This document shows positions 8,067 through 30,508 of a DNA stretch of 31,515 nt, one piece after another. This DNA comes from an uncultured Candidatus Competibacteraceae bacterium (lineage in GTDB: Bacteria; Pseudomonadota; Gammaproteobacteria; Competibacterales; Competibacteraceae): contig CALMNY010000181.1 of the NCBI GenBank assembly GCA_937872125.1, forward strand, positions 1 to 31,515, in the 5' to 3' direction. The position numbers and the translations under genes were made by a program. The first letter of the stretch is position 1, and each line of letters starts with the position of its first letter. Under the pieces are notes generated by a model. That model had not been told where the DNA came from. It worked only from the letters and a program-made list of their open reading frames with translations, and searched no databases.

Positions 8067-8076
8067 CATTACCGAC
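8067..8076 (+). promoter_or_regulatory. CATTACCGAC motif, copy 1 (upstream of PIN/NYN gene)
   Basis: An exact CATTACCGAC followed by a run of T and TATCAT, pointing toward the plus-strand gene at 8139. It is one of six identical intergenic copies in the window. TATCAT at 8083-8088 could be a -10 element, although the spacing to a -35 is poor here. Confidence 0.6.
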
Positions 8077-8138
8077 TTTTTTTTATCATAGCGACGCCGT
8101 GGCTCCCACAGCCGCCTCCCCCTCACCGGACCACCCCC

Positions 8139-9038
8139 ATGCCCACCCACTACCTGCTGGTCGACTACGAGAACGTTAAACGGGTTAACCCGACCCTCCT
8201 GGCCAGCGGTGACCACCACGTCATCCTGTTCCTCGGGCCGCAGGAGGACAAACTGCCGGTCGAGCTGGTGCTGGCCATGGAGCGCCTCGGCCCGCGCGGC
8301 CAGTACGTGCGGCTACGGACCCGTGGTCCGAACGCCCTGGATTTTCTGCTCTGCCATCATCTGGGCACCCTGATGACCCGCGCGCCACGGGCGCGGTTCC
8401 ACGTCCTCTCCCGGGACACCGGCTTTGATCCCCTGCTCGCCCACCTGCGCGCGCAGGGCTATCACTGCGCGCGGGTGGCGACGCTGGAGGAGCTTCCCGG
8501 GGCCAAGCCCCCCGGCGCGGTCCGTGGCGCTATCCCGGCGCTCCCCGCCCCCCCGCCGGCTGTTGCGGCGAAGGCGCCGGCGGTCGCGACGGACCCGGTG
8601 GCGCGTGCGGTGGCCCTGCTGCACAAATTCCCGCACAACAAGCCGGCCAGCGTCACCACCCTGCACGGCACCCTGCGTAACCTGTGCGGCCCCCAGGCAC
8701 CGCCGGAGCAGGCCGCGGCGCTCATCGACGCCCTGGTCGCGAAGGGCTATGTGCAGCTCACCGGTGAGGCGGTGACCTACGCCCTGCCGCCCCCGCCCGG
8801 CCCGGCCCCCGTCCCGCCCGCGCCGGCCGACCCGGTTACCCGCGCGGTGGCCCTGCTGCATAAATTCCGGCATAACAAACCGACCCGCGTCACCACCCTG
8901 CACGGTACCCTGCGCGCCCTGTGCCTCCCCCAGGCGCCGCCGGACCAGGTCACGGCGCTGCTCAACACCCTGGTCGCCCGCGGCTATGTCCAGCTCACGG
9001 GCGCGCGCGTGACCTATGCCTTACCGGCCGTGGGCTGA
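8139..9038 (+). CDS. PIN/NYN-like domain protein with duplicated C-terminal winged-helix-like repeat
   Basis: A 299-residue protein. Residues 1-115 look like a PIN-like nuclease fold of the PIN_7/NYN type: HYLLVDYENV (first acidic pair), ALDFLLCHHLG (acidic), and LSRDTGFDPLLAHLRAQGY (acidic), the spread of Asp/Glu expected at a metal-binding RNase site. After a Pro/Ala linker come two copies of a roughly 65-residue module (about 150-217 and 230-297), each with AVALLHKF..NKP..VTTLHGTLR.LC and GYVQLTG..VTYALP. The copies are offset by 79 codons and very alike at DNA level, so the duplication is fairly recent. Such modules may bind nucleic acid. The ATG at 8139 gives the conserved start. RNase activity is inferred, not shown. 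Confidence 0.75.
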   Translation: MPTHYLLVDYENVKRVNPTLLASGDHHVILFLGPQEDKLPVELVLAMERLGPRGQYVRLRTRGPNALDFLLCHHLGTLMTRAPRARFHVLSRDTGFDPLLAHLRAQGYHCARVATLEELPGAKPPGAVRGAIPALPAPPPAVAAKAPAVATDPVARAVALLHKFPHNKPASVTTLHGTLRNLCGPQAPPEQAAALIDALVAKGYVQLTGEAVTYALPPPPGPAPVPPAPADPVTRAVALLHKFRHNKPTRVTTLHGTLRALCLPQAPPDQVTALLNTLVARGYVQLTGARVTYALPAVG

Positions 9039-9044
9039 GCCCGC

Positions 9045-12000
9045 TCAACGGCCCGTCCCGGCGCCAGCGCGGGGCGGATAGACCACCGTCGCGCCTTCTG
9101 GCCCCAACAACGCCTGCAGCGCCGCCAGCAAGTCATCCGTCGGCGCCACCCGCCAGCCGTCATTCAGGGTCACCGTCCGGTCCTCGTCCGGTTTGCGCAG
9201 CCGGTACTCCAAGCGCAGCCCTTGGGGGTCGTTGGCGGCGCGCAACAGGGCGATCAGCCGTTCGCGCAGCGCCAGCGCCGCTTCCGGCGTCAGCGGGCGC
9301 AGATCCGCCGTCACCCGCAGCGCCATGGCCCGCTCGCTGCGGGCCGTCACCAGCGAACTCAGGGACGTCGCGACCAGCTGCGGCGCGTGGCTGCGCACAT
9401 CCAGCCGCAGGTCGCCGGTAACCCGCAGGATGGCGTCCGTCACCAGCAGCGCGGCATGCGCCTGATAGGCGGCGCCAAACACCACCACCTCGAGGCGCCC
9501 ACTGCCGTCATCCAGCTGGAGCGCCGCCATCGGGCCGCGGCGGGTCTTGCCGGGGCGCACGCTGGCGACCAGGCCCAGCAGGGTGGGCCGCGGCGACGTG
9601 CGCCGGCCGGCGCCCGCCGGCGCGCGGTCGGGGACGGGGGTGCTCTCCAGCAACGTGGCAATGCGCGTGGACGCCAGGTGCGGCCATTCCGCGACGTAAC
9701 GGTCGAGGGGGTGCTGGGACAGATAACACCCCAGCGTCAGCCGCTCGCCCTGCAGGCGCTCGGCCAGCGGCCATTCCGGCCAGCGCCGGGCGGCGAGTTG
9801 GGGGTCCACCGTCACGTCCTGCGGCGGCGCCAGGGCCGCAAACAGATCGCCCTGGCCACTGGCCGCGCGCGCCTGATCCTGCTCCGCCAGTTTCAACGCC
9901 AACGGCAGCTGCGCGGCCAGGGTCGCGCGATTCGCCCCCAGGGCATCCAGGGCGCCGCTGCGAATCAGGACCTCCAGGACGCCGATGTTGACCTTACCCA
10001 GGTCCAGGCGGCGACACAGATCCCACAGATCGCGGAAGGGCCCACCCTGGGTGCGGGCGTGTAACAGCGCCCCGGCGGCGGCCTGGCCGACGCCTTTGAT
10101 GGCGCCCAGGCCATAGCGCAGGGCCGGCGGCGCGTCGCCCGCCGCCGGCGCGACCGTGAAGCGCCAGGCCGAGGCGTTGACGCACGGCGGCCGCACGCCC
10201 AGGCCCAGGCCGCGCACCGCCACCAGCAGCTCCACCACCTTGTCGGTGTTGTCCATGTCCGCGGAGAGCACCGCCGCCATGAACGGCGCCGGATAATGGG
10301 TCTTGAGCCACAGGGTCTGATAGGCGAGCAGGGCGTACGCCGCCGAATGACTGCGGTTAAAGCCATAGCCGGCGAATTTGTCGATCAGGTCGAATATATG
10401 CCGGGCGACTTCAGGCGCGACCCCCCGCGCCACGGCGCCGTCCTCGAACACCGCGCGCTGGCGCGCCATCTCCGCGGGTTTTTTCTTGCCCATGGCGCGG
10501 CGCAACAGATCGGCGCCGCCCAGGGTGTAGCCGGCCAGGACCTGGGCAATCTGCATCACCTGTTCCTGGTAGAGGATGACGCCGTAGGTGGACTGGAGGA
10601 TGGGCGCCAGGGCGGGATGCGGATATTCCACCGCCGCGCCGTGCTTGCGCGCGATGAAATCATCCACCATGCCCGACTGCAGCGGCCCGGGGCGGAACAG
10701 CGCCACCAGGGCGGTCAGATCCTCGAAACTGTCGGGCTGCAATTTGCGGATCAGCTCCCGCATGCCGCGCGATTCGAGCTGGAAGACCGCGGTCGTGTCA
10801 CCCTGGCGCAAGCGGGCAAAGGCCGTGGCGTCCTCGGGCGGCAGCCCCTCCAGCGTCAGCGGCGGCTGCCCGCGCGCCCGCCGTTCCTCATTGGCGGTGA
10901 TCAGCGCCCCGTCGAGGATGGTCAGGGTGCGCAGGCCGAGAAAGTCGAATTTCACCAGGCCGATCTGTTCGACATCATCCTTGTCGAACTGCGTCACCTG
11001 GCCGCTGCCGCCTGGCTCGCAGTACAGCGGCGTGTAGTCGGTCAGGGGTCCGGGGGCGATCACCACCCCGCCGGCATGGGTGCCGGCATTGCGCGCCACG
11101 CCCTCCAGCTGCCGCGCCATGTCCAGCAGCGCGCCCACCACCTCGTCGGTCTGGTAGGCCTGGCGCAACGGGGCGCTGACTTCCAACGCCTTGTCCAGGG
11201 TCATGCCGAGCTCGAACGGCACCAGCTTGGCCAGCTGGTCGACGAAACCATAGGGATGGTCCAGCACCCGGCCGACATCGCGCACCACCGCCTTGGCGCC
11301 CAGGGTGCCAAAGGTGATGATCTGCGCCACCGCGGCGGACCCGTACTTCTCGGTGACGTAGGCGATCACCCGATCCCGGCCGTCCATGCAGAAGTCAACG
11401 TCGAAGTCGGGCATGGACACCCGCTCGGGATTGAGGAAGCGCTCAAAGAGCAGCTGGTGCGTCAGCGGGTCGATGTCGGTGATGCGCAGGGCATAGGCCA
11501 CCAGTGAGCCGGCGCCGGAACCGCGGCCCGGGCCGACCGGGATGCCCTGGGTGCGCGCCCAGCGGATGAAGTCGGCGACGATGAGAAAATAGCCGGCGAA
11601 GCCCATCGCGGCGATGACTTCCAGCTCGTTGCGCAGCCGCGCCGCGTAGGGGGCGCGGCGTGCGGCGCTGGCCGGGTCCGCCGCCGGCCAGACCGGTTCC
11701 AGCCGGTCCGCGAGGCCCTGCGCGGCCACCGTAGTGAAATAGGCGTTGACGTCCTGCCCGGCAGGCACCCCCGGCGCGGCCGGCAGGAAGCTGCGGCCCA
11801 GCGTCAGCTCCAGGTTGCAGCGCCGCGCAATTTCCACGCTGTTTTCCAGCGTCGCGGGGAGATCGGCGAATAACGCGCACATGTCCGCCGCCGGGCGCAG
11901 ATATTGCTCCGGCGTGAAGCCGCTGCTCACCCCGGCGGCGCCCAGTTTCACCCCCTGGTTGATGCACCAGCGCACCTCGTGCGCCTCCCAGTCGGCACGC

Positions 12001-12614
12001 CGCAGGAACTGCACGGCATTGGTCGCCACCAGCGGGACGCCATGGCGCGCCGCCAGGGCCAGGCTGCCCTCCTCCACCGGCGCCTCGCCGGGATGGCCGA
12101 CGCGCGTCAGCTCCAGGTAAAAACGGTCGCCAAAGGCGCGCAGCCAGGTCTCCAGGCAGGCGCGCGCCTGCTGGGGCTGGTCGTGCCGCAGCGCGCGCCC
12201 GACATCCCCCGTCACGCCGCCGGACAAGGCGATCAGCCCGGTGGTGTCCGCCAGCACCCAGTCACGCTCCACTTGGGGGAAACCCTGGTCCTGACCGGCG
12301 AGGTGGCTGCGCGACAGCAGGCGCGTCAGTTGGCGATAACCCTGGTCATCTTGCGCCAGCAACACCAGCCGGTCCGGGCGGGTGGGCGTGGCCGGATTCC
12401 GCACCCGCAGCTCAGCGCCAGTCAGGGGCTTGATGCCCGCCGTCTGCGCCGCGCGGTAGAACTTGACCAGCCCGAAGAGATTGCCCAGATCGGTGAGCGC
12501 CACGGCAGGCATGCCGTCGGCGCGCAAGGCCGCCATCAGCGGCTTGAAGCGGATGAGCCCATCAACCAGTGAATATTCACTGTGGACATGCAGATGCACG
12601 AAGGATACGGCCAT
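9045..12614 (-). CDS. dnaE: DNA polymerase III subunit alpha
   Basis: The catalytic subunit of the replicative polymerase, 1189 residues, close to the usual 1160. It begins MAVSFVHLHVHSEYSLVDGL, the PHP domain. The palm carries PDFDVDF near residue 400 and GMVDDFIARK further on, which together supply the three catalytic Asp. Fingers motifs AGYTLGGADLLRRAMGKKK and FNRSHSAAYALLAYQT are present. QGDLF near residue 920 matches the beta-clamp-binding pentapeptide (QADMF in E. coli), and an OB-fold follows (LGLVASVRPGKTRRGPMAAL). It is complete and probably active. The frame stays open upstream to 13175, but that overlaps the hns-like gene and the conserved start is 12614. Finding dnaE beside an hns-like gene, away from lpxB/accA, argues for an accessory replicon copy. 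Confidence 0.96.
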   Translation of the reverse strand: MAVSFVHLHVHSEYSLVDGLIRFKPLMAALRADGMPAVALTDLGNLFGLVKFYRAAQTAGIKPLTGAELRVRNPATPTRPDRLVLLAQDDQGYRQLTRLLSRSHLAGQDQGFPQVERDWVLADTTGLIALSGGVTGDVGRALRHDQPQQARACLETWLRAFGDRFYLELTRVGHPGEAPVEEGSLALAARHGVPLVATNAVQFLRRADWEAHEVRWCINQGVKLGAAGVSSGFTPEQYLRPAADMCALFADLPATLENSVEIARRCNLELTLGRSFLPAAPGVPAGQDVNAYFTTVAAQGLADRLEPVWPAADPASAARRAPYAARLRNELEVIAAMGFAGYFLIVADFIRWARTQGIPVGPGRGSGAGSLVAYALRITDIDPLTHQLLFERFLNPERVSMPDFDVDFCMDGRDRVIAYVTEKYGSAAVAQIITFGTLGAKAVVRDVGRVLDHPYGFVDQLAKLVPFELGMTLDKALEVSAPLRQAYQTDEVVGALLDMARQLEGVARNAGTHAGGVVIAPGPLTDYTPLYCEPGGSGQVTQFDKDDVEQIGLVKFDFLGLRTLTILDGALITANEERRARGQPPLTLEGLPPEDATAFARLRQGDTTAVFQLESRGMRELIRKLQPDSFEDLTALVALFRPGPLQSGMVDDFIARKHGAAVEYPHPALAPILQSTYGVILYQEQVMQIAQVLAGYTLGGADLLRRAMGKKKPAEMARQRAVFEDGAVARGVAPEVARHIFDLIDKFAGYGFNRSHSAAYALLAYQTLWLKTHYPAPFMAAVLSADMDNTDKVVELLVAVRGLGLGVRPPCVNASAWRFTVAPAAGDAPPALRYGLGAIKGVGQAAAGALLHARTQGGPFRDLWDLCRRLDLGKVNIGVLEVLIRSGALDALGANRATLAAQLPLALKLAEQDQARAASGQGDLFAALAPPQDVTVDPQLAARRWPEWPLAERLQGERLTLGCYLSQHPLDRYVAEWPHLASTRIATLLESTPVPDRAPAGAGRRTSPRPTLLGLVASVRPGKTRRGPMAALQLDDGSGRLEVVVFGAAYQAHAALLVTDAILRVTGDLRLDVRSHAPQLVATSLSSLVTARSERAMALRVTADLRPLTPEAALALRERLIALLRAANDPQGLRLEYRLRKPDEDRTVTLNDGWRVAPTDDLLAALQALLGPEGATVVYPPRAGAGTGR

Positions 12615-12645
12615 GGGCGGTCCCCGGAGGACGCGGCGCGTTCGC

Positions 12646-13068
12646 TCAGGCGGCGGGCACGCGATAGCGCTCGAGATCGTCGCCGGCAGCGACGAGGCGG
12701 CGCACCCAGGCCGGGCATCGGCCCCGGCCGCCATGCCAGACATTGCCGGCCTCGTCACGGGAGCGGGGCGTGAGTCGGTCGCGTGCCGCCGGCGGACGCG
12801 CGGCCGCCACCGCCGGGGCGGGCGTGGGCAGCAACACCAGCGCCGGCCGCGGTGCCGTCTCCACCGCCGGGGCGCGGTCCGGCGCCCGCGGCGTGACCGG
12901 CTCGGGCTCCGGGCGCAAGCCCAGCTCGTCGGGGGTGAGGTGATACTGCGCAATCGTGCGCCGCAGCTCGGCAATGACCTGGGATTTCTCCCGGACCGCC
13001 TGTTCAGCGGGCAGTTGGGTAAGGTAGTCAATAAGACAGTCCAGTTCGGCGAGATTGAGCTTGCCCAT
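12646..13068 (-). CDS. H-NS family nucleoid-associated DNA-binding protein
   Basis: A 140-residue protein with a helical N-terminal oligomerisation region (MGKLNLAELDCLIDYLTQLP then QVIAELRRTIAQY). A long Pro/Ala linker follows, about residues 50-95. The C-terminal domain RSRDEAGNVWHGGRGRCPAW matches the H-NS motif YRDP..G.TW.GRGR.P.W. H-NS-type proteins bind AT-rich DNA and silence foreign genes; plasmid-borne forms often reduce the fitness cost of the plasmid. It ends 31 bases before dnaE on the same strand, so the two may be cotranscribed. GAGGA precedes the ATG, and a TTGACA promoter lies upstream. Confidence 0.85.
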   Translation of the reverse strand: MGKLNLAELDCLIDYLTQLPAEQAVREKSQVIAELRRTIAQYHLTPDELGLRPEPEPVTPRAPDRAPAVETAPRPALVLLPTPAPAVAAARPPAARDRLTPRSRDEAGNVWHGGRGRCPAWVRRLVAAGDDLERYRVPAA

Positions 13069-13102
13069 GGTTCCTCTATTGACGGATTAAGTTCACGGTT
13101 TA

Positions 13103-18005: not shown

Positions 18006-19097
18006 TCAGGCGCTGCTCACCGCAGGGTCGGCGGCGCGAGGCGCGTCATCGATCTCCTCCCTCCGCGCCGCGCCCGGGTCGAGGTCATCGGCTGTGACGG
18101 GCGGGGTGGCGCGGAGCAGCCGGTCGCGGATCCGGGCCTCGATCGCCCGCGCCAGGTCCGGATGCTCACGCAGGTACTGGCGGGCGTTGTCCTTCCCCTG
18201 GCCGATGCGCGTGCCCTGATAGCTGTACCAGGCGCCGGCTTTATCGACCAGCTCCTGCGCCACCCCCAGTTCGATGATCTCCCCTTCGCGGGAAATGCCT
18301 TCGCCATAGAGCAGGTCGAAGGTTGCCTGGCGGAACGGCGGCGACACCTTGTTCTTCACCACCTTGACCTTGGTCTCGGTGCCGACGATCTCCTCGCCGC
18401 GCTTGATCGGGCTGCCCTTGCGAATGTCCAGGCGCAGGGTGGCGTAGAATTTCAGCGCATTCCCGCCGGTCGTGACCTCGGGCGAGCCATACACCACGCC
18501 AATTTTCATGCGGATCTGGTTGATAAAGATCACGATCGCGTTACTGCGCTTGATATTGCCGGTCAGCTTGCGCAGCGCCTGCGACATCAGGCGCGCCTGC
18601 AGGCCGACATGCGCATCGCCCATCTCGCCCTCGATCTCCGCCTTGGGGGTCAGGGCGGCCACGGAGTCAATGACGATCATGTCCGTGGCCCCGGAGCGCA
18701 CCAGCATGTCGGTGATCTCCAGCGCCTGTTCGCCGGTGTCGGGTTGCGAGATAAGCAGCTCCTCGACCTTGACCCCCAGCTTGGCGGCATAAACCGGGTC
18801 GAGCGCATGCTCGGCGTCGATGAATGCACAGGTGCCGCCGGCGAGCTGGCATTGGGCGATGGCGTGGAGGGTGAGCGTGGTCTTGCCCGAGCTTTCAGGC
18901 CCGTAGATCTCGACGATGCGGGATTTGGGCAGGCCGCCGACGCCGGTGGCGATATCCAGGCCCAGCGAGCCACTCGAGATCGTCTCGAGGTTGGTCAGGC
19001 CGCCAGCGTCGCCCATGCGCATGATGGCGCCCTTGCCAAAATGTTTCTCGATTTGCGCGAGCACGGTCAGCAGTGCTTGTTTGCGATGTGCGTCCAT
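18006..19097 (-). CDS. recA: Recombinase RecA
   Basis: RecA forms filaments on single-stranded DNA, pairs homologous strands and triggers LexA cleavage. The protein has 363 residues and contains [15 protein letters not shown], the Walker [10 protein letters not shown], the [13 protein letters not shown] block, the Walker [11 protein letters not shown], and the L2 region [29 protein letters not shown]. It ends in a longer than usual Ala/Arg-rich tail. The ATG at 19097 ([13 protein letters not shown]) fits the family start; a TTG at 19106 is less likely. No recX follows. A second recA copy, or one on a large mobile replicon, would be unusual, and its genomic context needs the flanks. All catalytic parts are present. 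Confidence 0.97.
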
Positions 19098-19116
19098 GGT
19101 CCTCAATGCCGAAACA

Positions 19117-19212: not shown

Positions 19213-19719
19213 TTAAAACCACTGCCGTCCGCCCGGAGGGGGACCGGTATAGCACGTCGCGGGAGCGGCCGGGGCCGCGTCCGGGGGGTCCGGTTGTCCG
19301 GTGGCCAGCGGCCATAAAAACACTCCGCCCAGTAGCGCCATGACCTGCGAATGGCGCAAGGCCAACGCGCGACCCTCGGCGGCGCTGGCCGCCTGACCGA
19401 TGACATAGCGCGAGCCGGCATGGGGATTGGCCAGCAGGCTGTGCAGCCGCGCCGCCGGGGTGGCGCCCAGGCCGGGCACCAGCTGCCCCCGCCGGCTCGT
19501 CACCACATGCTCGCCGTCCACCTCCACCAACCAGAAATCCCGGCGTCCCGGAGTAGCGGTGAGCAGCGGGCCTTCGGCGTAATTGCGAAATTGGACCGCA
19601 GCCGGCGGCACCGCCAGCGCCGGCGCCATGCACAGCCGCAGGGGGCGCCCGGCGGCCGGCCCCGGACGGGCGCCGGTGCGGCGCAGCGCCCGGCCGTGCC
19701 CCGGCGGCGACCGGGTCAT
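19213..19719 (-). CDS. Hypothetical protein, second gene of a two-gene operon
   Basis: A 168-residue protein. A basic, low-complexity first 45 residues precede a more structured part: VQFRNYAEGPLLTATPGRRD, then FWLVEVDGEHVVTSR, a Leu-rich HSLLANPHAGSRYVIGQA, and a hydrophobic SQVMALLGGVFLWPLA that could be one membrane helix near residues 125-140. Its ATG overlaps the upstream TGA (ATGA), so it is coupled to the gene at 19716-20087. Family not recognised. The true start may be further in. Confidence 0.55.
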   Translation of the reverse strand: MTRSPPGHGRALRRTGARPGPAAGRPLRLCMAPALAVPPAAVQFRNYAEGPLLTATPGRRDFWLVEVDGEHVVTSRRGQLVPGLGATPAARLHSLLANPHAGSRYVIGQAASAAEGRALALRHSQVMALLGGVFLWPLATGQPDPPDAAPAAPATCYTGPPPGGRQWF

Positions 19720-20087
19720 GGCGCGGCCGGTGGCGCCCAGGTCCAGGGCTGCCGCGCGCGCGCGGCGGCCTCACGGACCTGCTGCATGCAGGCCACCCGC
19801 CAGTCCAGCCAGGCGCGCGTCGCCACCAGCGGGTCATCGACCTCGGCCAGGACGGGGCGTTCAGGTAATGCGCCCACGCCTTCCCAGTTAACCAGGTTGG
19901 CGGCGCGCCGGAGGGTCTCCAGCTCCGTGAGGTCGGTGACCCCGTTCTCGTCGGTGGTTAAGGTCGCGAGCCATTCGCGTTCCTCCGGTGTCAGGTCGGC
20001 CGGATGCACCTGGATTTCCACCGCGCCATACTGGTCGCGGCCGGCGCGAATTGCCGCCGCACGATCGACTTTTACTGACAGTCTCAT
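19716..20087 (-). CDS. Hypothetical protein, first gene of a two-gene operon
   Basis: A 123-residue soluble protein: MRLSVKVDRAAAIRAGRDQY, then VEIQVHPADLTPEEREWLAT, an acidic TTDENGVTDLTELETLRRAA, and a C-terminal helix (RAWLDWRVACMQQVREAAAR). GGAAGAG precedes the ATG at 20087; a GTG directly before it is also possible. It resembles phage/plasmid accessory proteins in style, but I cannot assign a family. A CATTACCGAC motif lies about 85 bases upstream, pointing toward it. Confidence 0.65.
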   Translation of the reverse strand: MRLSVKVDRAAAIRAGRDQYGAVEIQVHPADLTPEEREWLATLTTDENGVTDLTELETLRRAANLVNWEGVGALPERPVLAEVDDPLVATRAWLDWRVACMQQVREAAARARQPWTWAPPAAP

Positions 20088-20170
20088 CACCCACTCTTCC
20101 CCGCCCGGGCGCCGGGCGCTTTTGCGTTTATGATTATCTTAGCACATCCGTTGGCGCGCTTTGCATATCA

Positions 20171-20180
20171 GTCGGTAATG
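20171..20180 (-). promoter_or_regulatory. CATTACCGAC motif, copy 2
   Basis: An exact copy on the minus strand in an AT-rich spot (TATC and TGATTATTATC on either side), between the GmtX-like gene and the 19.2-20.1 kb operon, oriented toward the latter. Confidence 0.6.
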
Positions 20181-22294: not shown

Positions 22295-23992
22295 TCACAA
22301 AGAAACCGGCGCCTCAACCCCAGCCCCCGCCTTCCGCCCTGACGGGCGGGGCGCTTCCCTCCCCACGGCTAAAGCCGGGGGCTTCTCGCGCCAATCTGGT
22401 GAGTGGGGCGTGAGCGCCAGGGATGGAGCCCGCGTGCGGTTGGCGTGGCGCGTCCGCGCGGCGCGCAGAAACGCCAGAAACAGCGGGTGGCCGGACCACG
22501 GCGCGGCGGTGAATTCCGGCAGGAACTGGCAGCCGAGAAACCAGGGGTGACCGGGCAGTTCGATGATGTCCACCTGACGACCGTCCAGCGCTGCGCCGGT
22601 GAAGCGCAGGCCGTGATCCATGAGCAGGGTCTGATAGCGAGGATTGAGGCCGGCCGTTTGCCGATGGCGCTCGCGAACCTGATGGCGACCATACGCGGCC
22701 CGCGCCAGGCTGCCCGGGGCCAGTCGGGTCACGCGGCCGCCGCGAGGCTGGTCAGCAGCGGCCAGGGGGATGATGACGGGTTCGGGGGTGTCCGGCGTCC
22801 CGGGCTGGCGCTCGACCGCGGCCAGGCCCGCGACCTGACGGGCGAATTCACTCACCGCCCAGTGCATGCCGGCGCCCAGACCCAGGAAGGGCACGCCCAG
22901 GGTGCGAGCGGCGTGGATTGCGGCGAGCGCGACCGGCGGCGGGGGCGCGCCATCGGGGACCAGCAGGGCATCCACCGCGCTCAGGTCACAGCCTGCGACG
23001 GGCGGGTCCACGCCCAGCCAGCGCCGGTCGAGCTGGAGACCGAGGAGGCGCGCGCTGTGCTGCAGGGCGGCGTCCAGGGATGGGGCGGCCGGGCCGACCT
23101 GTTCCGGATGGGCGCTAACCACCCCCAGGGTGACCATCGGCCCCGTGGGCGTGGGCGGCGCCAGGAGCGGCTCCCAGGCCGTCAGGTCCGCCGGCGGCGC
23201 GTCCAGCCCGAAGGCGGCCAGCACCTGCGCGTCCGCCCCCACGGCCTGCAACAGGTGCGGCAGCCGGTAGACGGTGTCGGTATCCACCACCGACAGCACC
23301 GCCGGCGCGGGGACGTTGGTAAAGAGGGCGAGCTTGCGGCGCGCCCCGTCCGGCAGGGGCAGCTCGGCGCGGCACAGCAGGAGATCCGGTTGGATACCAA
23401 TGGCGCGCAACTCGTGCACGGTGTGCTGGGCGGGTTTCGTCTTGATCTCGCCCGCGGCCCGCAGGAACGGCACCAGGGTCAGGTGGGCGAACAGGGTGTG
23501 GCGCGGCCCGGCGGTCACCCGCAGCTGGCGGATCGCCTCCAGAAACGGCAGCGACTCGATATCGCCCACGGTGCCGCCGACCACCACCAGGGCGAGGTCC
23601 GCCCCGGCGGCGCCGGCCAGGATGCGCCGCTGGATTTCGTCGGTGAGGTGGGGAATCACCTGCACCGTCCGCCCGAGATAGTCGCCGCGCCGTTCGCGAC
23701 GGATGACCTCGGCATAGACCTGGCCCAGGGTCACGCTCTGCTGGCCGGCGGCCGGAATGCCCAGGAAGCGCTCGGCGTGGCCCAGGTCGCGATCAGTCTC
23801 GGCGCCGTCATCAGTGAGGAACACCTCGCCGTGGGGGCGCAAGGCGCGGGAGTCGACGTTGAGATAGGGCGCCAGCTTGACGAGGGTGACGCGCAAGCCC
23901 CGGGCCGCCAGCACCGCGCCCAGGGCCGCGGCCGTCACGCCTTTGCCCAGGGACGAGGCCACGCCACTGGTGACAAAGACCAGGCGGGTCAT
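22295..23992 (-). CDS. CTP synthase paralogue with inactivated glutaminase site, C-terminus extended by IS sequence
   Basis: PyrG makes CTP from UTP, ATP and glutamine-derived ammonia. Here the synthetase half keeps SSLGKG, GAETDRDLGH, GGTVGDIES and KTKPAQHTV, although KLDPY has become KLAPY and the following loop is two residues shorter. In the glutaminase half the nucleophile motif FLGICLGM reads FLGLGAGM (Cys lost), and QFHPEF reads QFLPEF (His lost); Glu is kept. Glutamine hydrolysis should therefore be impossible; ammonia-driven synthesis or a binding role remains possible. The natural end should fall after PLFLAFLRAARTRHANR; the last 20-35 residues are read from the tnpB element. The ATG overlaps the nucleotidase stop (ATGA). 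Confidence 0.88.
   Translation of the reverse strand: MTRLVFVTSGVASSLGKGVTAAALGAVLAARGLRVTLVKLAPYLNVDSRALRPHGEVFLTDDGAETDRDLGHAERFLGIPAAGQQSVTLGQVYAEVIRRERRGDYLGRTVQVIPHLTDEIQRRILAGAAGADLALVVVGGTVGDIESLPFLEAIRQLRVTAGPRHTLFAHLTLVPFLRAAGEIKTKPAQHTVHELRAIGIQPDLLLCRAELPLPDGARRKLALFTNVPAPAVLSVVDTDTVYRLPHLLQAVGADAQVLAAFGLDAPPADLTAWEPLLAPPTPTGPMVTLGVVSAHPEQVGPAAPSLDAALQHSARLLGLQLDRRWLGVDPPVAGCDLSAVDALLVPDGAPPPPVALAAIHAARTLGVPFLGLGAGMHWAVSEFARQVAGLAAVERQPGTPDTPEPVIIPLAAADQPRGGRVTRLAPGSLARAAYGRHQVRERHRQTAGLNPRYQTLLMDHGLRFTGAALDGRQVDIIELPGHPWFLGCQFLPEFTAAPWSGHPLFLAFLRAARTRHANRTRAPSLALTPHSPDWREKPPALAVGREAPRPSGRKAGAGVEAPVSL
22361..22384. repeat. Left-end hairpin of the tnpB-only element
   Basis: An exact 24-bp direct copy of 21154-21177 with core CGGCTAAAGCCG. 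It is translated as part of the artificial C-terminal tail of the CTP-synthase-like protein. Confidence 0.75.
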
Positions 23993-24978
23993 GGCGCCTC
24001 CACCCGCGGGGGGCTGGCGGACGGCGCCGGTTGCAGCAAGGAGCCCGTGGGATAAGGCACCTTGCCCGCCGGCACGCAATGCGCCGCGCGGTCCAGGTGC
24101 AGGTCCTGGTCATCGAAGAAGATATGCGCCTTGAACGCGGTGAGGATCGCGGTCTTGGCCACGCCGCCGAGAAAAAAGATCTCGTCGACGGCCACGCCCC
24201 AGTGGCGCAGGGTTTTGATGACGCGCATTTCCGCCGGCGCGGCGCGCGCGGTGACGAGGGCGATGCGGATCAGGGCGGCCTGTCCGTACTGCGCCAGGCG
24301 CTGTTGCAGGCGTGACAATTTGCGCAGCATTTTGGCGTAGGGGCCGTCGCCCAGCGGCTCATCCTGACGGGCATCCTCGCTGGCGTGGAAGCTCTCCAGG
24401 CCCTGCGTGCGGAACACCAGTTCACTGGTCTCGTCGAACAGCACGGCATCGCCATCAAAGGCGATGCGGACCTGATCCTCGCTGGGCGCGAGGCGCTGAC
24501 TGGGCGGGGGCTTGACGATGGCCGCCGCGCAGACCTGCTCGTCGATCACCCGTTGCGCGTCCTCGACGTTGGTGGTGAGAAACAGATCCACGGCGAAGGC
24601 GGCGAGGTAATCGACGACAGACTCGCCACCGGTGAAGGCATGGCGCCGAATGGGCAGGCCCCGGGCGCGGATGTTGTTGAAGACCCGCACGCCGGTTTCC
24701 GGGCTGTTGCGCGACATCACCACCACTTCCACCAACGGCTGCGGGTCATTGGCGGGCTGCACCTGGTTCAGGCCCAGCAAGGCGCGCACCAGCGGCATGC
24801 CCGTGCCATCCGCCAGGGGCTCGGCCTCCCGGGCCTGCATGTAGGCGCGATAGTCGGCCACCGCGGCCGCGGGATCCGCCGCGTAGCGGGCGCGGAACAG
24901 GCTGTCGCTTTCGGTCATGTCGAACAGGGCCGTCGCCGAAATGCCGACGACGAAGGTTTCAGCGAGATCCAGGGCCAT
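23989..24978 (-). CDS. Cytosolic 5'-nucleotidase (PF06189-type, HAD-like)
   Basis: Predicted to remove phosphate from nucleoside monophosphates. The 329-residue protein follows the family plan: FVVGISATALFDMTESDSLF at the start, LVEVVVMSRNSPETGVRVFN, LPIRRHAFTGGESVVDYLAA, the Asp pair in RIAFDGDAVLFDETSE, and LVTARAAPAEMRVIKTLRHW, then DEIFFLGGVAKTAIL and HIFFDDQDLH with the metal-binding Asp pair. Family members more often have DFDGVL; here the motif is DGDAVL, and both Asp are kept. It overlaps the CTP-synthase-like start by four bases and follows a 67-residue protein by 18 bases, forming a nucleotide-metabolism operon. Confidence 0.88.
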   Translation of the reverse strand: MALDLAETFVVGISATALFDMTESDSLFRARYAADPAAAVADYRAYMQAREAEPLADGTGMPLVRALLGLNQVQPANDPQPLVEVVVMSRNSPETGVRVFNNIRARGLPIRRHAFTGGESVVDYLAAFAVDLFLTTNVEDAQRVIDEQVCAAAIVKPPPSQRLAPSEDQVRIAFDGDAVLFDETSELVFRTQGLESFHASEDARQDEPLGDGPYAKMLRKLSRLQQRLAQYGQAALIRIALVTARAAPAEMRVIKTLRHWGVAVDEIFFLGGVAKTAILTAFKAHIFFDDQDLHLDRAAHCVPAGKVPYPTGSLLQPAPSASPPRVEAP

Positions 24979-24996: not shown

Positions 24997-25200
24997 TCAA
25001 TCGCCCTCGGCGAGGGCTGTCGTCACGGCGGCCCTGATCGCCTGGGGCTCCGGCGCCAGTACGCCGTCCGCAATCTGTTCCTGAATCGAGGTGGAGAAAT
25101 CGGCGTTCCTCAGCACCTCCTGGTACACGTTGCCGTAGGGATCACGGATGCAAAGGGTGGTGGTGACCTCGGCCTTCCAGGGGAGTCTTGATAGCGGCAT
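24997..25200 (-). CDS. Small hypothetical protein, first gene of the nucleotidase operon
   Basis: 67 residues (MPLSRLPWKAEVTTTLCIRD, YGNVYQEVLRNADFSTSIQE, then EPQAIRAAVTTALAEGD). It is soluble and resembles small phage/plasmid proteins. AGGATCAGGATC precedes the ATG at 25200. Family not recognised. It is 18 bases before the nucleotidase gene, and about 100 bases after a promoter carrying the CATTACCGAC motif. Confidence 0.65.
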   Translation of the reverse strand: MPLSRLPWKAEVTTTLCIRDPYGNVYQEVLRNADFSTSIQEQIADGVLAPEPQAIRAAVTTALAEGD

Positions 25201-25302: not shown

Positions 25303-25331
25303 ACATTAGCATTAAAAGGTCGGTAATGCAA
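25303..25331 (-). promoter_or_regulatory. Promoter with embedded CATTACCGAC motif, copy 3
   Basis: On the minus strand TTGCAT (25326-25331), 17-base spacer beginning TACCGACC, then TAATGT (25303-25308). The shared 10-mer overlaps the -35 and the start of the spacer, a position where a bound repressor would block RNA polymerase. It drives the 67-residue protein / nucleotidase / CTP-synthase-like operon. Confidence 0.65.
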
Positions 25332-25363
25332 TGAATCACCTTGCGCAACCCTGCATCCCCGCG

Positions 25364-25796: not shown

Positions 25797-25797
25797 C

Positions 25798-26061: not shown

Positions 26062-26124
26062 CGTTTTCTTCCTTCGGTAACTACCAGGGCAATAAGATCG
26101 AGTGGGGCCGGACCGCGGCCGGCA

Positions 26125-26352: not shown

Positions 26353-26615
26353 GCCCAGTACTCCGCGAACCATGGATCGAAGGCCTGCCAGGCCGGGTGG
26401 CGCGGGTTGTCCAGCGGCGAGCGCTGGAGGGGTTGACCATCCCGACGGAGGAATTGCGGTCCCCACTGCGGGGTGAATAGCCAGCGCCAGGTGCGGCCTC
26501 GGGCATCCTGGCCGACGCCGTAATAGGTGGCATGGGAACATTCCCGGCAGTGTGGGTTCTGCCCCGGGGTGCTGGAGCAGTGGGGCGACGAGCAGTCGTG
26601 ACAGCAGGTGCTCAC
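26349..26615 (-). CDS. Small protein with Cys-rich N-terminus
   Basis: 88 residues starting at GTG 26615: MSTCCHDCSSPHCSSTPGQN, then HCRECSHATYY, six Cys in the first 30 residues, followed by a Trp-rich part (TWRWLFTPQWGPQFLRRDG) and a C-terminus ending DPWFAEYWA. The GTG overlaps the TGA of the preceding paralogue. Family not recognised. Confidence 0.65.
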   Translation of the reverse strand: MSTCCHDCSSPHCSSTPGQNPHCRECSHATYYGVGQDARGRTWRWLFTPQWGPQFLRRDGQPLQRSPLDNPRHPAWQAFDPWFAEYWA

Positions 26616-26938
26616 GGCATTTTTTCGCCGCGGGCGGCCGCGGCGCGGACGATGGCGCGGCGCGTGGCGGCGAAGGCGTCGCGGGCCAGACCCGCGCCAC
26701 AGGGCTCACACACGTTGTTCGCCGCCGCGTGCGCCTTGTCCGGCCCGGGCGCCGCGACCAGCATGCCGAGCTGGACGGCCAGGGCGAAGGCGTCGCCATT
26801 GTGATGCAGCGGGTTCCAGGCCAGGCGTGCGTGGGGCGGGAAGGGGGAATAAAACCCGTCTTCAATCCAGACGGCGGTGTGGATATGTTCCAGCCCCACG
26901 GCCTTGGCGGCCAACGTCAACAGGTCGCGGTCGGTCAT
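26612..26938 (-). CDS. Tandem paralogue 4: MTDRDLL...WNPL...ATRRAIVRAAA family
   Basis: 108 residues: MTDRDLLTLAAKAVGLEHIH, LAWNPLHHNGDAFALAVQLG, and ATRRAIVRAAAARGEKMP. The same three landmarks occur in the three upstream genes. This pattern is common in small uncharacterised proteins of Pseudomonas and Burkholderia phages (from memory). The ATG overlaps the upstream TGA. No catalytic motif is visible. Confidence 0.75.
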   Translation of the reverse strand: MTDRDLLTLAAKAVGLEHIHTAVWIEDGFYSPFPPHARLAWNPLHHNGDAFALAVQLGMLVAAPGPDKAHAAANNVCEPCGAGLARDAFAATRRAIVRAAAARGEKMP

Positions 26939-27264
26939 GGCGCCTCGCCCCCCATCGCTGCCGCGGCCTGGACGATGGCTCGGCGGACGGTCGCCATGCC
27001 GGCGGGCCCGGCGGGCACCGTGCACGATGCAGCGTGCTGCACGCCGGCATGCGTCCACTCAACCCGGCACGTCCGGCGCGCAGGTTCCGCGGGATCTACG
27101 CCCACCTCCAGGAACTGCACGCGCAGACCAAGCTGCACCAGCAGATCAAACGCGTCACAGTTGTAAAGCAGAGGATTCCAACCGTATTCCTGGTCGGGGG
27201 GTGGGAGTTCGCCGGGCAGCTGTGCCACCTGGGCGGCCCGGGCCAGCAATTCCCCATCGGTCAT
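26935..27264 (-). CDS. Tandem paralogue 3
   Basis: 109 residues: MTDGELLARAAQVAQLPGEL, YGWNPLLYNCDAFDLLVQLG, and TVRRAIVQAAAAMGGEAP. It keeps all three landmarks but replaces ATRRAIVRA with TVRRAIVQA and the usual GDA with CDA. It overlaps both neighbours by four bases. Confidence 0.75.
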   Translation of the reverse strand: MTDGELLARAAQVAQLPGELPPPDQEYGWNPLLYNCDAFDLLVQLGLRVQFLEVGVDPAEPARRTCRVEWTHAGVQHAASCTVPAGPAGMATVRRAIVQAAAAMGGEAP

Positions 27265-27629
27265 GCCATGCCCCGCAAATTGCCACCCAGATGGGGCAGG
27301 CGCGCGCTGGCTCCCGACCGTCGCTCGCCCAGGTGGACGGCGACCCGGACGATCGCGCGTCGGGTGGCGGCGGCGGGATCGCCGCTGACCGCCTCCCAAT
27401 AGACCCCCGTCCGTGGGTGGCGCGCGCCCACGCGCTCGTCGGCGTCATCCTCGGGCCGCACCACCTCGATGGCCAACTGCCGCGCCAGCTGGCGCGCGTC
27501 GCCCTCTTGGGTCAGCGGATTCCAGAGGCGGCCGCCGGGACCGCGCAATCCATCCACCTCCTGCCAATACCAATCCACGCCCGCCGCGTGAGCGGCCCGG
27601 CGGAGACAGTCGTGACCCAGTGCCGCCAT
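27261..27629 (-). CDS. Tandem paralogue 2
   Basis: 122 residues: MAALGHDCLRRAAHAAGVDW, RLWNPLTQEGDARQLARQLA, and ATRRAIVRVAVHLGERRSG, with a further C-terminal stretch absent from copies 3 and 4. The N-terminal MTD motif is not kept. Confidence 0.72.
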   Translation of the reverse strand: MAALGHDCLRRAAHAAGVDWYWQEVDGLRGPGGRLWNPLTQEGDARQLARQLAIEVVRPEDDADERVGARHPRTGVYWEAVSGDPAAATRRAIVRVAVHLGERRSGASARLPHLGGNLRGMA

Positions 27630-27647
27630 GTCACGCCCCCGCCCTGG

Positions 27648-28070
27648 TTAGCGCGACGCGCCGCTGGCGCGCAGGTCGTCCCGGCCCACCCGGGCGGCGC
27701 GCGTGAGCCAACGGGGGAGCGTCGTATACCACGCGCGGGTCCGGGGACTGCTCTGCCCCCGCTGGGCGGCGGCGCGCACAATCGCCCGGCGCGTGGCGAC
27801 GTGATAATCAAATCCCGGCGGGGTGACGGGCTGAATCACCGCACCCGTGCCCAGCAAGCCGCGTGACCAGCGGACCTCCACGCACTCCCGATCGAGGTCG
27901 GGCGGGCGGATCTCCAGCGCCAGCGTCACCGCCAGGCGGAGCGCCGTCCCATCGCAGGTCAGCGGATTCCACAGGCCGCCGTGTTGGTCATGTAAGCCGT
28001 CGGGAGCGGCCTGCTGCCAGGCGATCCCCGCCGCCTGGGCGGCCTGAATGAGTAATTGCTGGTCGGTCAT
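27648..28070 (-). CDS. Tandem paralogue 1 (operon leader)
   Basis: 140 residues: MTDQQLLIQAAQAAGIAWQQ, GLWNPLTCDGTALRLAVTLA, and VATRRAIVRAAAQRGQSSPR, then an extra 35-residue basic tail (WYTTLPRWLTRAARVGRDDL). It is the first gene of the minus-strand operon, with a CATTACCGAC copy about 50 bases upstream. Confidence 0.75.
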   Translation of the reverse strand: MTDQQLLIQAAQAAGIAWQQAAPDGLHDQHGGLWNPLTCDGTALRLAVTLALEIRPPDLDRECVEVRWSRGLLGTGAVIQPVTPPGFDYHVATRRAIVRAAAQRGQSSPRTRAWYTTLPRWLTRAARVGRDDLRASGASR

Positions 28071-28120
28071 TATATTGATACTTATGGGCGATCTTGGCTG
28101 ATGAGAGCCGGCTACCTGGA

Positions 28121-28130
28121 GTCGGTAATG
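28121..28130 (-). promoter_or_regulatory. CATTACCGAC motif, copy 4
   Basis: An exact copy on the minus strand, about 50 bases before the first gene of the nine-gene operon and pointing toward it. No strong -10 at the expected distance. Confidence 0.55.
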
Positions 28131-28293
28131 CTTCCTGCTTGGCGTAGTGCGCGGCGGAGGCAGACGCGTTTATTTTCCGGCAGCCGGTCACTACATTAAG
28201 GTTACAACGAAGGCGCGCTGACGTCCAGCAGGCAGATACCACCGCCGCCTAATCCGCACCTGATAGCGCCAGGTAAGGGTAAATAATCATAAA

Positions 28294-28304
28294 GGTCGGT
28301 AATG
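28294..28304 (-). promoter_or_regulatory. CATTACCGACC motif, copy 5
   Basis: An exact copy on the minus strand ending four bases before the -35 of the plus-strand promoter at 28309. Unlike the others it does not point toward the nearest gene, so it could act as an operator for either direction. Confidence 0.55.
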
Positions 28305-28308
28305 ATAC

Positions 28309-28337
28309 TTGACTTGGGCAAAGCTGGCTGTTACAGT
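28309..28337 (+). promoter_or_regulatory. Sigma-70-like promoter for the DUF5983-like gene
   Basis: TTGACT, 17-base spacer, TACAGT, about 35 bases upstream of the ATG at 28372. This is the best promoter match on the plus strand in this part. Motif copy 5 lies immediately upstream. Confidence 0.65.
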
Positions 28338-28371
28338 AGACCCCATAGCCCACCCCACCCTGGAGATCCCC

Positions 28372-28725
28372 ATGTCGTCTGCCCCGTTCGCCCCCCACTC
28401 CGCCCCCCAGCCGGCGGCGCGGACCTTCCATAAAATGCTGGAGCTTTCCACCGCGCACCTGCCCCCGACGATCATGGCGCACCTGGAGGACACGGCGGGG
28501 GCGGATTATCCGTTCGTGAGCTTTCTGAACGAATACGGGGTCATGCTGTCCCTGCCGGACGCGGAGGAAGGGCCGTTTTTCCTGGAAGTGCTGGGCGCAT
28601 CGCCCCTGGCAGACCCACGGTTTATCGCCGTGATCGACTATGCCCGCGCCCTGGGTTGCACCTGGCTGCTGGTGGACCGGGATGTCCCGGTCCTGCCGGA
28701 TCTGCCGGTGTACGAATGGGAGTAA
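28372..28725 (+). CDS. DUF5983-like plasmid/phage protein
   Basis: 117 residues. The features LSTAHLPPTIMAHLED, an acidic middle, FIAVIDYARALGCTWLLVDR and the end LPDLPVYEWE match what I recall of DUF5983 (STAHI..., YA...GC..ILFDRD, LP.YEW). These small proteins are widespread on plasmids and integrative elements and have no known function. GGAG precedes the ATG by seven bases. Confidence 0.7.
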   Translation: MSSAPFAPHSAPQPAARTFHKMLELSTAHLPPTIMAHLEDTAGADYPFVSFLNEYGVMLSLPDAEEGPFFLEVLGASPLADPRFIAVIDYARALGCTWLLVDRDVPVLPDLPVYEWE

Positions 28726-28829
28726 CCCGCGAACCGTCGGGTGGCGCGCGCGAATCCCTGCCGCCGCCCGGACACCCTGCCTGCGGGGCTGGCCGCCCCG
28801 CGTGATTCCGCCCGAAGAGGACCGCCGGC

Positions 28830-29648
28830 ATGCTTGCTCCCCAACGTCTGATCGGCCTCGCCGCCCCGGCCCGCGCGGGCAAGGATACCGTCGCCTCTTT
28901 ACTGCGCGAGGTGTGGCCTGAGGCCCATACCTACGCCTTCGCGCTCCCGCTGAAAGTGGGCTGTCAGGTCTTGTTCGGCCTGAGCGACGCCGAGACCTGG
29001 AGTGAGCACACCAAGGAACAGGCGCTGCCCGACTGGGGCTACTCGCCCCGCGCCTTGTGGCAGACCGTGGGCACGGACTGGATGCGCCGGCGCAATCGCG
29101 ATCACTGGCTGCGGCGGGCGGAACGTGCGCTGACCCAGTTCAGTCGGGCGGCGCACGACCCGGCCCCGCCCCCGACCGATCTCCTGGACCCGCCGAGCGT
29201 GTTGCGCCGCGCCGCCCAGGCGTTTTGGGGCCTGTCGCCCGCCCAGGCGTTTGACCCAGCGGCCGCCGATGAACTGGACCCGCTGTGGGGCCTGACGCCG
29301 GCCGCCATGGTCGCGGCCCTGGACGCGGACGTGCGGCGGAGCTTCCCGGATTTTGCCCGGCTGCGCCAACGGCGAGCCGCGCCGTGCCTCGCGTCCACAC
29401 CAGCCGTGCCCCTCCCCCTGCGCACGTTGATCATCACCGACACGCGCTTTGCCAATGAGGCGGACTTTATCCGCCGCGCCGGGGGGACGGTGTGGCATAT
29501 CGACCGGGCGTCCGCTCCGGCGGTGCGCGCCCATGTCTCGGAGCAGGGCGTGGCGCGCCTCCCGGGAGATCGCGTGATCGACAATAACGGCACGCTGGAC
29601 GATCTGCGCCGGGCGGTGCGGGCGGCTGCCGCCCAGACCCCGGCGTAA
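28830..29648 (+). CDS. Phage-type deoxynucleoside monophosphate kinase
   Basis: Predicted to phosphorylate dNMPs, supplying dNTP precursors during replication of phage or plasmid DNA. The 272-residue protein opens LIGLAAPARAGKDTVASLLR, the P-loop form (G..ARAGKDT) of T4 gene 1-like kinases. It then has LPLKVGCQVLFGLS, WQTVGTDWMRRRNRDHWLRR and IITDTRFANEADFIRRAGGT, the D-RF-NEA motif that coordinates substrate in this family, and ends with a Val-Ile-Asp-Asn-Asn-Gly segment. AAGAGGA lies upstream of the ATG. It follows the DUF5983-like gene by about 100 bases. Confidence 0.85.
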   Translation: MLAPQRLIGLAAPARAGKDTVASLLREVWPEAHTYAFALPLKVGCQVLFGLSDAETWSEHTKEQALPDWGYSPRALWQTVGTDWMRRRNRDHWLRRAERALTQFSRAAHDPAPPPTDLLDPPSVLRRAAQAFWGLSPAQAFDPAAADELDPLWGLTPAAMVAALDADVRRSFPDFARLRQRRAAPCLASTPAVPLPLRTLIITDTRFANEADFIRRAGGTVWHIDRASAPAVRAHVSEQGVARLPGDRVIDNNGTLDDLRRAVRAAAAQTPA

Positions 29649-29837
29649 GGCGGTCATTGGCCGGAATCAGCCCCCGCCGACGCCGCATACCGGGCAAATT
29701 ACGGCCCACCCGCGGTTACCCTGGACGGAGCGTGTCCCCGCCGTGCGCGGCTGCGGTATACGCGGCCCCGTCGTCAGCCACCGCCAGCCGGCGCCCGGCG
29801 CGACGGCCTTGCCACCGTCATTGCTCCAGGCTTCACC

Positions 29838-30431
29838 ATGTATGCTCAACTCCTTGCGGCGGGCGCGGACCCCCAGCCGCTCATGGTCATTCGCGTGCTG
29901 CTCAACGCCAGCGACCTGGTCGATCTGCTGGCACCGCCGGCCCAGCCGGATGCCGCCTCCCTGTCCCTGCCGCTCCAGATCGACCGTGACCTGATGTCAT
30001 GCTTGGCCCCGTGGATGGTACCCTCCCCGCCCCCGCCGCCCGGTGCGCACTTTGAGGTGGCCTGGTGCCCGCCGGTAACGACCGTCGCCGCCCTGCGCCA
30101 GGCGGTAGCGACCCTGAACCCCCAGGCGACCGGGTCACCCCTGGTGGTGGACCTGCAACTGGCCGGGCACTCCCTGGCGGATGTACGCCGCCAGCTGGGC
30201 TTGCCGGACGCCCCGGAACTGCATCTCACCGTCCCCATCAGCGACGAGCTGATCGAGCAGCTGCGGGCGCTGGAGCAGGAACACCAGCGAGCCATCGCAG
30301 AGGTGACCCTGGAGGTGGTCCTGGGGGGCGCGCTCCTCGCGGATCTGCGGCGAAGCTGGGGATTCCCGGAGGCCCCCACCCCGGAGGAGGTGGAGAGGAG
30401 CTTGCGGGCGCACCGCGTACGCTTGCACTAG
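29838..30431 (+). CDS. Hypothetical protein with internal repeats
   Basis: 197 residues, soluble and Leu/Pro rich. Two related segments, VVDLQLAGHSLADVRRQLGL and LEVVLGGALLADLRRSWGF, each followed by PDAPEL or PEAPTP, suggest an internal duplication; a third, weaker one near the N-terminus (VIRVLLNASDLVDLLAPP) is possible. An acidic helix (ELIEQLRALEQEHQRAIAEV) lies between. Family not recognised. It is followed by a strong terminator. Confidence 0.6.
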   Translation: MYAQLLAAGADPQPLMVIRVLLNASDLVDLLAPPAQPDAASLSLPLQIDRDLMSCLAPWMVPSPPPPPGAHFEVAWCPPVTTVAALRQAVATLNPQATGSPLVVDLQLAGHSLADVRRQLGLPDAPELHLTVPISDELIEQLRALEQEHQRAIAEVTLEVVLGGALLADLRRSWGFPEAPTPEEVERSLRAHRVRLH

Positions 30432-30456
30432 CCTCTCGCCCTGTTTCGCGCCCCAA

Positions 30457-30476
30457 CCGCCGAAAGGCGGTTTTTT
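30457..30476 (+). terminator. Rho-independent terminator
   Basis: CCGCC, tetraloop GAAA, GGCGG, then TTTTTT: a clean intrinsic terminator 25 bases after the stop at 30431. It separates the kinase region from the lipoprotein gene. Confidence 0.88.
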
Positions 30477-30478
30477 AG

Positions 30479-30508
30479 TTGCATTACCGACCTTTTATTT
30501 GTTATCCT
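30479..30508 (+). promoter_or_regulatory. Promoter with embedded CATTACCGAC motif, copy 6
   Basis: TTGCAT (30479-30484), 18-base spacer beginning TACCGACC, then TATCCT (30503-30508). It drives the lipoprotein at 30539. The arrangement is almost the same as that at 25303-25331, including TTTT after the motif. Confidence 0.65.

Follow-up and report, generated by a model that had tools for sequence, protein, structure and literature searches.

A ten-base word, CATTACCGAC (hereafter the box), recurs in the promoters of a large element, similar to a conjugative plasmid, that is represented in the draft genome of an uncultured Candidatus Competibacteraceae bacterium (GCA_937872125.1; 3.49 Mb in 553 contigs, 81% complete, bin contamination 3.9%). 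The window analysed here, 31,515 nucleotides long, is one contig of that genome (C181; CALMNY010000181.1) and carries six copies of the box. We conclude that it is a real, strong, element-wide promoter box and that the kind of system, a plasmid-wide transcription network, is already known. Our leading though tentative reading is that the box is the predicted operator of one dedicated regulator encoded by the element, most likely a global occluding repressor, and that it serves a regulon of maintenance and DNA-metabolism genes. The evidence, which comes from sequence analysis, locates a predicted binding position; it does not tell which protein is bound there.

Distribution of the box

The initial annotation had reported six exact copies of the word, and all six were recovered at the same positions and on the same strands (Table 1). 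None of them lies inside a gene. Gene calls were made with a model trained on this DNA, and the genic or intergenic status of all box copies was taken from these calls. The word is rare by chance, as had been proposed: 100 dinucleotide shuffles of the window yielded zero copies. Five of the six copies had been described as pointing to the next gene start; the tendency is real and the number too low, since all six face the called gene that follows them on the same strand.

The draft genome as a whole contains 34 exact copies, compared with 5 of the reversed word. By the gene calls, 12 copies are in genes and 22 outside; one of the latter, on C389, falls in a 254-codon open frame. The 21 copies on 11 element-type contigs are all intergenic, though only 22% of the sequence of these contigs (30,484 of 136,826 bases) is intergenic (2e-14). 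Six copies are on C181, three on C10, two each on C52, C136 and C540, and one each on C118, C249, C256, C283, C294 and C500. The other 13 copies are on 13 host-type contigs and all lie in reading frames (12 called genes and the C389 frame). The initial annotation had named an equal frequency within genes or across the host chromosome as speaking against a regulon, and this is not the pattern found. Base composition predicts about 0.04 exact copies in the intergenic DNA of the element contigs. In an unsteered word count on the same contigs the box was the commonest intergenic 10-mer, with 20 intergenic and 0 coding occurrences after exclusion of the C249 copy, which duplicates a C136 site. This duplicate was also dropped from all 20-site counts given below, and the related C118/C136 pair was kept.

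Outside this genome the word is found slightly above control level. Among 58 relatives it totalled 459 occurrences compared with 330 for the reversed word (0-21 copies per genome), and the present genome had the highest number. The extended promoter form CATTACCGACCTTTTN6TA was searched with at most one mismatch in 369 genomes of the class and was present at four places here and at single places in eight others; its reversed form occurred at 11 places in ten of these genomes. In six related plasmid records, three of them typed MOBH, TTACCGAC was not enriched and stayed below the reversed control in each. As far as seen, the box appears to be confined to this element or to close relatives of it. 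Among the papers covered that print the word or its complement, titles and abstract openings name no bacterial regulator binding this 10-mer; in a response-regulator paper it occurs in a primer (PMC2696094).

Promoter anatomy around the box

Flanks of the 20 sites were searched for −10-like hexamers scoring above 4.5 bits and starting 6-11 bp after the box. On the strand of the box such a hexamer was present at 13 of 20 sites, compared with 0 of 20 on the opposite strand and 5.3% of random intergenic points. The hexamers were TAGACT and TATCAT (three sites each), TAAGCT (two sites), TATGCT, TAGGAT, TATCCT, TAATGT and a weak GATTAT. A TTG trinucleotide at positions −4 to −2 or −3 to −1 before the box was found at 7 of 20 sites, with 0.4 expected (p ~8e-8; the flanks had been inspected before the −10 window, threshold and TTG registers were fixed, so p-values are descriptive, though the effect is large). 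Six of these seven sites also have the −10, at a distance of 16-18 bp from the TTG hexamer. The register of this hexamer relative to the box varies by one base while the 16-18 bp distance holds. Sigma-70 thus seems to read these promoters itself, and a protein bound to the box need not replace it. Two of the sites are in the window, at 25319 and 30482, where the reported identity of the TTGCAT/TACCGACC/TTTT arrangement proved to be real (TTGCAT-N17-TAATGT and TTGCAT-N18-TATCCT). The proposal of a "non-standard promoter box" was only half right: the box is shared and linked to promoters, and the visible promoters are otherwise of ordinary sigma-70 type.

The box is co-oriented with the downstream gene at 17 of 18 sites that have one (flipped control, 8 of 19). 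The exception is on C294; sites C52:82 and C540:25396 are too close to contig ends to judge. In an alignment of 23 sites (the 20 exact non-duplicate ones and three with another base 10, including one on C436, a contig counted only here and in the mismatch-site and tetranucleotide analyses), information outside the ten bases was chiefly at base −3 (T or A in 22 of 23), at base −2 and in a T-rich tract after the box. The homologous promoters of C118 and C136 retain the box and the −10, and the bases between them have diverged. No Rfam family was detected at the boxes, and one HEARO RNA was detected on C283.

The box itself is asymmetric and nearly invariant. On the counts of −10 hexamers, TTG trinucleotides and orientations, it lies mostly in the spacer between the −35 and −10 elements of sigma-70-like promoters, centred near −27. 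The presence of the same word in many promoters and never in element genes points to one common regulator.

Genes associated with the box

In the window, Pfam matches bear out the PIN/NYN-type protein and the pair of a CTP synthase paralogue and a nucleotidase which the initial annotation had placed behind the box (Table 1). Its "nine small accessory genes" correspond to a run of small paralogues in which four were called in a row. All three members of this tandem array (26612-28070, minus strand) that were scanned match the phage family phrog_5086. That recA forms an operon with site 2 is a guess.

Table 1. Boxes, promoter-like elements and associated genes in the window (contig C181)
Feature	Position	Strand	Remark
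Site 1, box CATTACCGAC	8067..8076	+	63 bp before PIN7/NYN-type gene
Site 1, −10-like TATCAT	8084..8089	+	7 bp after box
PIN7-domain gene (PF18475)	8139..9038	+	behind site 1
Site 2, box	20171..20180	−	without −10 at usual distance; before 19716-20090(−), possibly also the following recA
Gene behind site 2	19716..20090	−	124 aa, without Pfam family
RecA	18006..19106	−	same strand, downstream of site 2
Site 3, box	25319..25328	−	
Site 3, −35-like TTGCAT	25326..25331	−	CAT shared with box
Site 3, −10-like TAATGT	25303..25308	−	10 bp after box, 17 bp from −35
First gene after site 3	24997..25200	−	small protein of no assigned function
5'-nucleotidase (PF06189)	23989..24978	−	
CTP synthase paralogue (PF06418)	22295..23992	−	
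Site 4, box	28121..28130	−	without −10 at usual distance
Site 5, box	28295..28304	−	weak −10-like GATTAT 6 bp after box
First gene after sites 4 and 5	27648..28070	−	phrog_5086 family; paralogues continue to 26612
Site 6, box	30482..30491	+	
Site 6, −35-like TTGCAT	30479..30484	+	CAT shared with box
Site 6, −10-like TATCCT	30503..30508	+	11 bp after box, 18 bp from −35
Lipoprotein-like gene (by eye)	30539..31513	+	without Pfam family; open at contig end

The initial suggestion of a regulon that spans the element and shares a box at its promoters is supported, and the regulon extends to ten more contigs of the draft genome. A GyrB/ParE-type gene is behind the box on C118 and C136, a type IA topoisomerase gene on C136 and C249 (151 bp) and a DnaB gene on C256 (470 bp). 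The DnaB helicase (L036, 3-2133) contains intein splicing domains. Boxes on C10 precede the gene of a 592-aa ATPase, its partial paralogue and an array of small paralogues, and those on C52, C500 and C540 precede genes of no assigned function. The C283 box is followed by the HEARO RNA and a downstream frame which by eye resembles IscB (L037, 395-2132; box at 395, HEARO RNA, Rfam RF02033, at 480-704), and it may drive an IscB guide RNA.

Two sites with one mismatch to the box were noted. On C540, a 55-aa gene at 23011-23178 (L041, 15012-15179), ribbon-helix-helix-like by eye and without a Pfam match, has CATTACCGAA and the −10-like TACTAT upstream; its product is possibly an autoregulated regulator. 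On C436 (L120), a contig of element-like composition, CATTACCGAT at 3692 stands before a recR-like gene and is accompanied by a T tract and TATGAT.

The genes of both candidate regulators singled out by the initial annotation are present: the AlpA-like gene (1099-1320, PF05930, E 4.5e-14) and the H-NS-like gene (12646-13068), with a match to PF00816 of 24.0 bits that is below the 25.6 cut-off. There is no exact box copy at either gene. The window also contains Cas5, Cas7-like (CT1975) and Cse1 genes on the minus strand at 2787-6315, type I-E by their names; Cse1 matches are split over two separate frames, and the gene looks broken.

Nature of the element

The 11 box contigs have a G+C content of 0.625-0.721 and the 13 host-type contigs of 0.595-0.636. 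By tetranucleotide composition, eight of nine box contigs (the two reference contigs aside) fell on the element side, the exception being C283 (3.1 kb), and all 13 host-type contigs fell on the host side. Of 100 further contigs, 19 were dropped as masked or shorter than 3 kb. Four of the remaining 81 were on the element side, including C527, with flagellar genes by eye, and C35; these contigs had been chosen without box-bearing ones, so their zero box count is uninformative. The signature is imperfect, as contig C543 illustrates: its sequence resembles a coupling protein gene (TraG-D_C, 16.1 bits, below the cut-off), yet it scored slightly on the host side. Overlaps between C118 and C136 (92% identical) and between C136 and C249 (95% identical; L033/L034/L035) imply two related elements or strain variants in the bin.

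The element contigs encode HU/IHF-like, SSB, DnaE and RecA proteins, CTP synthase, 5'-nucleotidase, a dNMP kinase, a GyrB/ParE-type subunit, a type IA topoisomerase (III-like by eye) and the intein-containing DnaB, together with an actin-like protein, a CobT/VWA protein, TraF, TraH, TraG and an FlhC-like protein. The C10 ATPase is HSP90-like by eye and without a Pfam family. It has relatives at 84-86% and 56% identity on metagenome contigs (P0002-P0004). More distant ones, about 27-36% identical and matching mostly over the N-terminal half, are encoded by large plasmids from Methylomonas, Methylobacter, Sulfuricystis, Azospira, Geoalkalibacter and others; of six such plasmids examined, three were typed MOBH. 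Beyond this genome, 6 of 38 genomes of the family have weak N-terminal matches only, and no viral relative of the ATPase was found. In the Methylomonas and Sulfuricystis/Azospira plasmids the ATPase gene is preceded by a similar GC-rich leader, with a possible hairpin by eye (L094, L097, L096, L098), in which no Rfam family was detected at E 0.1.

Plasmid pUP202 (NZ_CP123898.1) and contig C540 have in common the gene order traF-traH-traG, flhC/flhD (FlhC-like), ParM/StbA (actin-like). On the strength of the transfer genes, the ATPase relatives on MOBH plasmids and this gene order, we take the element most probably to be a megaplasmid of MOBH/F type or something related to one. In place of the box, pUP202 has iterons and an inverted-repeat family. 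A near-palindromic intergenic repeat, AACCCGCTGG...CCAGCGGGTT, is located near 8619, 40234, 42532, 89660 and 90450, and TAGCTAGC clusters near the rep gene. The box is absent from at least one element-like contig: C35, which by eye resembles a transfer operon with a topoisomerase, has no exact copy, and its five two-mismatch intergenic words are not promoter-like.

A viral origin was considered and rejected. Fifteen viral-contig stretches, two of which are the ends of one contig, hold CATTACCGACCTTTTT, and in 14 of them it lies inside an open frame of at least 85 codons. Six of 15 pass the −10 threshold, mostly in AT-rich DNA for which the score was not set. The exception, viral contig L092 (7595-7610), has a single promoter-like copy of CATTACCGACCTTTTT with no long frame and with TATGAT 10 bp downstream.

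The protein that may read the box

We infer that a protein binds the box. If it is a repressor placed on the spacer, it would occlude RNA polymerase in the manner of KorA of plasmid RK2 or ArdK/StbA of R388. The genes behind the box would be kept low in a resident cell, and a burst of expression would follow once the element enters a cell free of repressor. Repression from the spacer would account for the six sites at which the promoter around the box is complete, and it agrees with known plasmid networks (PMC3937220, PMC11790492). Megaplasmids with RecA, DnaE, topoisomerase and helicase genes of their own need to bring these into step with the host. One invariant, asymmetric promoter word before many such genes would offer a compact handle on how they do this, and it makes the regulator findable by one pull-down.

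Several observations weigh against repression. Seven of the 20 sites (C136:2851, C256:2603, C294:4942, C500:3106, C540:25396, C181:28121 and C181:20171) lack a −10 at that distance. A box that is asymmetric and has no second half-site in direct or inverted form is also unlike the symmetric or repeated sites of classical repressors. Sites with one mismatch are nearly absent (4 intergenic, compared with 3 for the reversed word), which is unusual for a graded operator, and the fixed orientation relative to the −10 (13 sites versus 0) is unneeded for simple occlusion. No regulator gene preceded by an exact box was recognised on the recovered part of the element, which is incomplete.

The asymmetry, the position near −27 and the single orientation relative to the −10 would suit a polar activator acting at a "−26 box" and helping sigma-70 where the −35 is imperfect, much as PafBC and SARP proteins do; the DNA-metabolism targets would then form a response to damage or entry. 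We rank this serious rival behind the repressor and consider it possible, if rather unlikely. Seven of the 13 sites with a −10 have no TTG −35, there are precedents in the PafBC −26 motif (PMC11804915) and the AfsR box at −29.5 (PMC10936776), and targets include topoisomerases, DnaB, the PIN protein, nucleotide enzymes and possibly recA. However, the gap between box and −10 varies from 6 to 11 bp, the TTG located 16-18 bp from the −10 in six promoters argues that no adapter is needed there, and no WYL protein (PF13280) was found in the draft genome, 81% complete. Also rather unlikely is a mobile megaplasmid with a polar, mismatch-intolerant −27 box read by an undescribed element protein that would act on the host sigma-70 polymerase. 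Such a protein might be an adapter of sigma or a switch bound in the spacer, belong to neither the WYL nor the SARP family, and run private replication, topology and nucleotide genes.

It is improbable that the box contigs are pieces of a second, co-binned organism whose own regulon the box would mark. Their tetranucleotide signature is shared by the flagellar contig C527 and by C436 with its recR-like gene, and the bin has its 3.9% contamination; but the content resembles that of conjugative plasmids (TraF, TraH, TraG, the actin-like protein and the ATPase with relatives on large plasmids), recA, dnaE and pyrG by eye lack the neighbours that they usually have on chromosomes, and a further RecA end is present in the genome (on C84, 56% over 113 residues).

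We find it quite improbable that the FlhC-like protein of C540 and its neighbour form an AcaCD/SetCD-type master activator with CATTACCGAC as its box. The gene (C540:9341-9865, minus strand) matches PF05280 with 35.5 bits (cut-off 27), overlaps a partner frame on its upstream side and follows traF-traH-traG, the place that flhDC has on pUP202; there are boxes on the same contig, on which the traF-H-G run begins at the contig end. The SetCD site, by comparison, is 19 bp long and located upstream of or over the −35 in promoters that have no −35 (PMC4344509), while the present box is further downstream with TTG enriched. Moreover, the transfer-operon-like C35 has no exact box, pUP202 has flhDC but no such box, and the partner frame has neither a Pfam nor a plasmid match and, at 208 aa, is longer than usual FlhD. 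The pair could well activate transfer. Within the stretch that includes it (L119, 9341-11363), it adjoins a response-regulator-like gene in which the usual acidic pair seems by eye to be absent, and an exact box is located 16 bp after that gene.

Two last explanations are highly unlikely. A long, nearly invariant word on a fixed side of a −10-like hexamer could be the −35 element of an alternative sigma factor, but the 6-11 bp to the −10 vary too much and fall short of what a −35 would need (usually 15-18 bp), TTG is already where sigma-70 wants it, and none of the six sigma-70 region 2 genes found is on a box-bearing contig (five are in stretches with a G+C content of 0.58-0.645, by eye rpoD, rpoS, rpoH and two of ECF type, and a FliA-like one is on C527, 0.71). 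The promoters could also be copies of one ancestral cassette with the box as a relic and no regulator, as common orientation and the T-rich tract after many boxes might suggest, but 20 non-duplicate sites keep an exact 10-mer in flanks that have almost no similarity left beyond T/A at −3, the base at −2 and the T tract, and between C118 and C136 neighbouring bases changed and the box did not.

Comparison with known systems

Element-wide networks are already known from small broad-host-range plasmids, SXT and IncA/C; in the literature covered, a spacer-embedded asymmetric box is not described for them. The operator of KorA is 12 bp long and symmetric and can overlap the −10, whereas here a 10-bp asymmetric site lies in the upstream spacer. 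Of the features of a KorA/ArdK-type network, we found a dispersed promoter word and overlap with the core promoter (13 of 20 sites), and no symmetric or repeated operator. The resemblance to KorA/KorB of the IncP-1 plasmid RK2 lies in a single operator word placed close to core promoters in many operons of a conjugative plasmid: the KorA operator is almost invariably near core promoter elements, and the KorA/KorB network covers replication and transfer functions (PMC11790492). In R388, maintenance genes with strong promoters are likewise under shared plasmid repressors (ArdK, StbA and KorA), and six repressors, arranged in feedback loops, and no activator were found (PMC3937220); in contrast to ArdK, which binds direct and inverted repeats (PMC9723621), no repeat is present at our box.

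As with SetCD/AcaCD of SXT/R391 and IncA/C, there is an element-wide regulon and an FlhC-like protein encoded after traF-H-G; unlike there, where the box is upstream of or over the −35 position of promoters without this element, the box here lies further downstream. In its position it comes close to PafBC of mycobacteria and the SARP regulator AfsR. PafBC reads a −26 motif and is positioned between DNA and sigma domain 4 (PMC11804915), and the AfsR box, centred at −29.5, lies over the spacer (PMC10936776). The present element differs from PafBC in the lack of a WYL protein in the draft genome, the variable gap to the −10 and the unrelated host. It is like both systems in that its box is in the −35/−10 spacer, near −26 and in fixed orientation at 13 of 20 sites; the targets of PafBC are DNA-damage genes.

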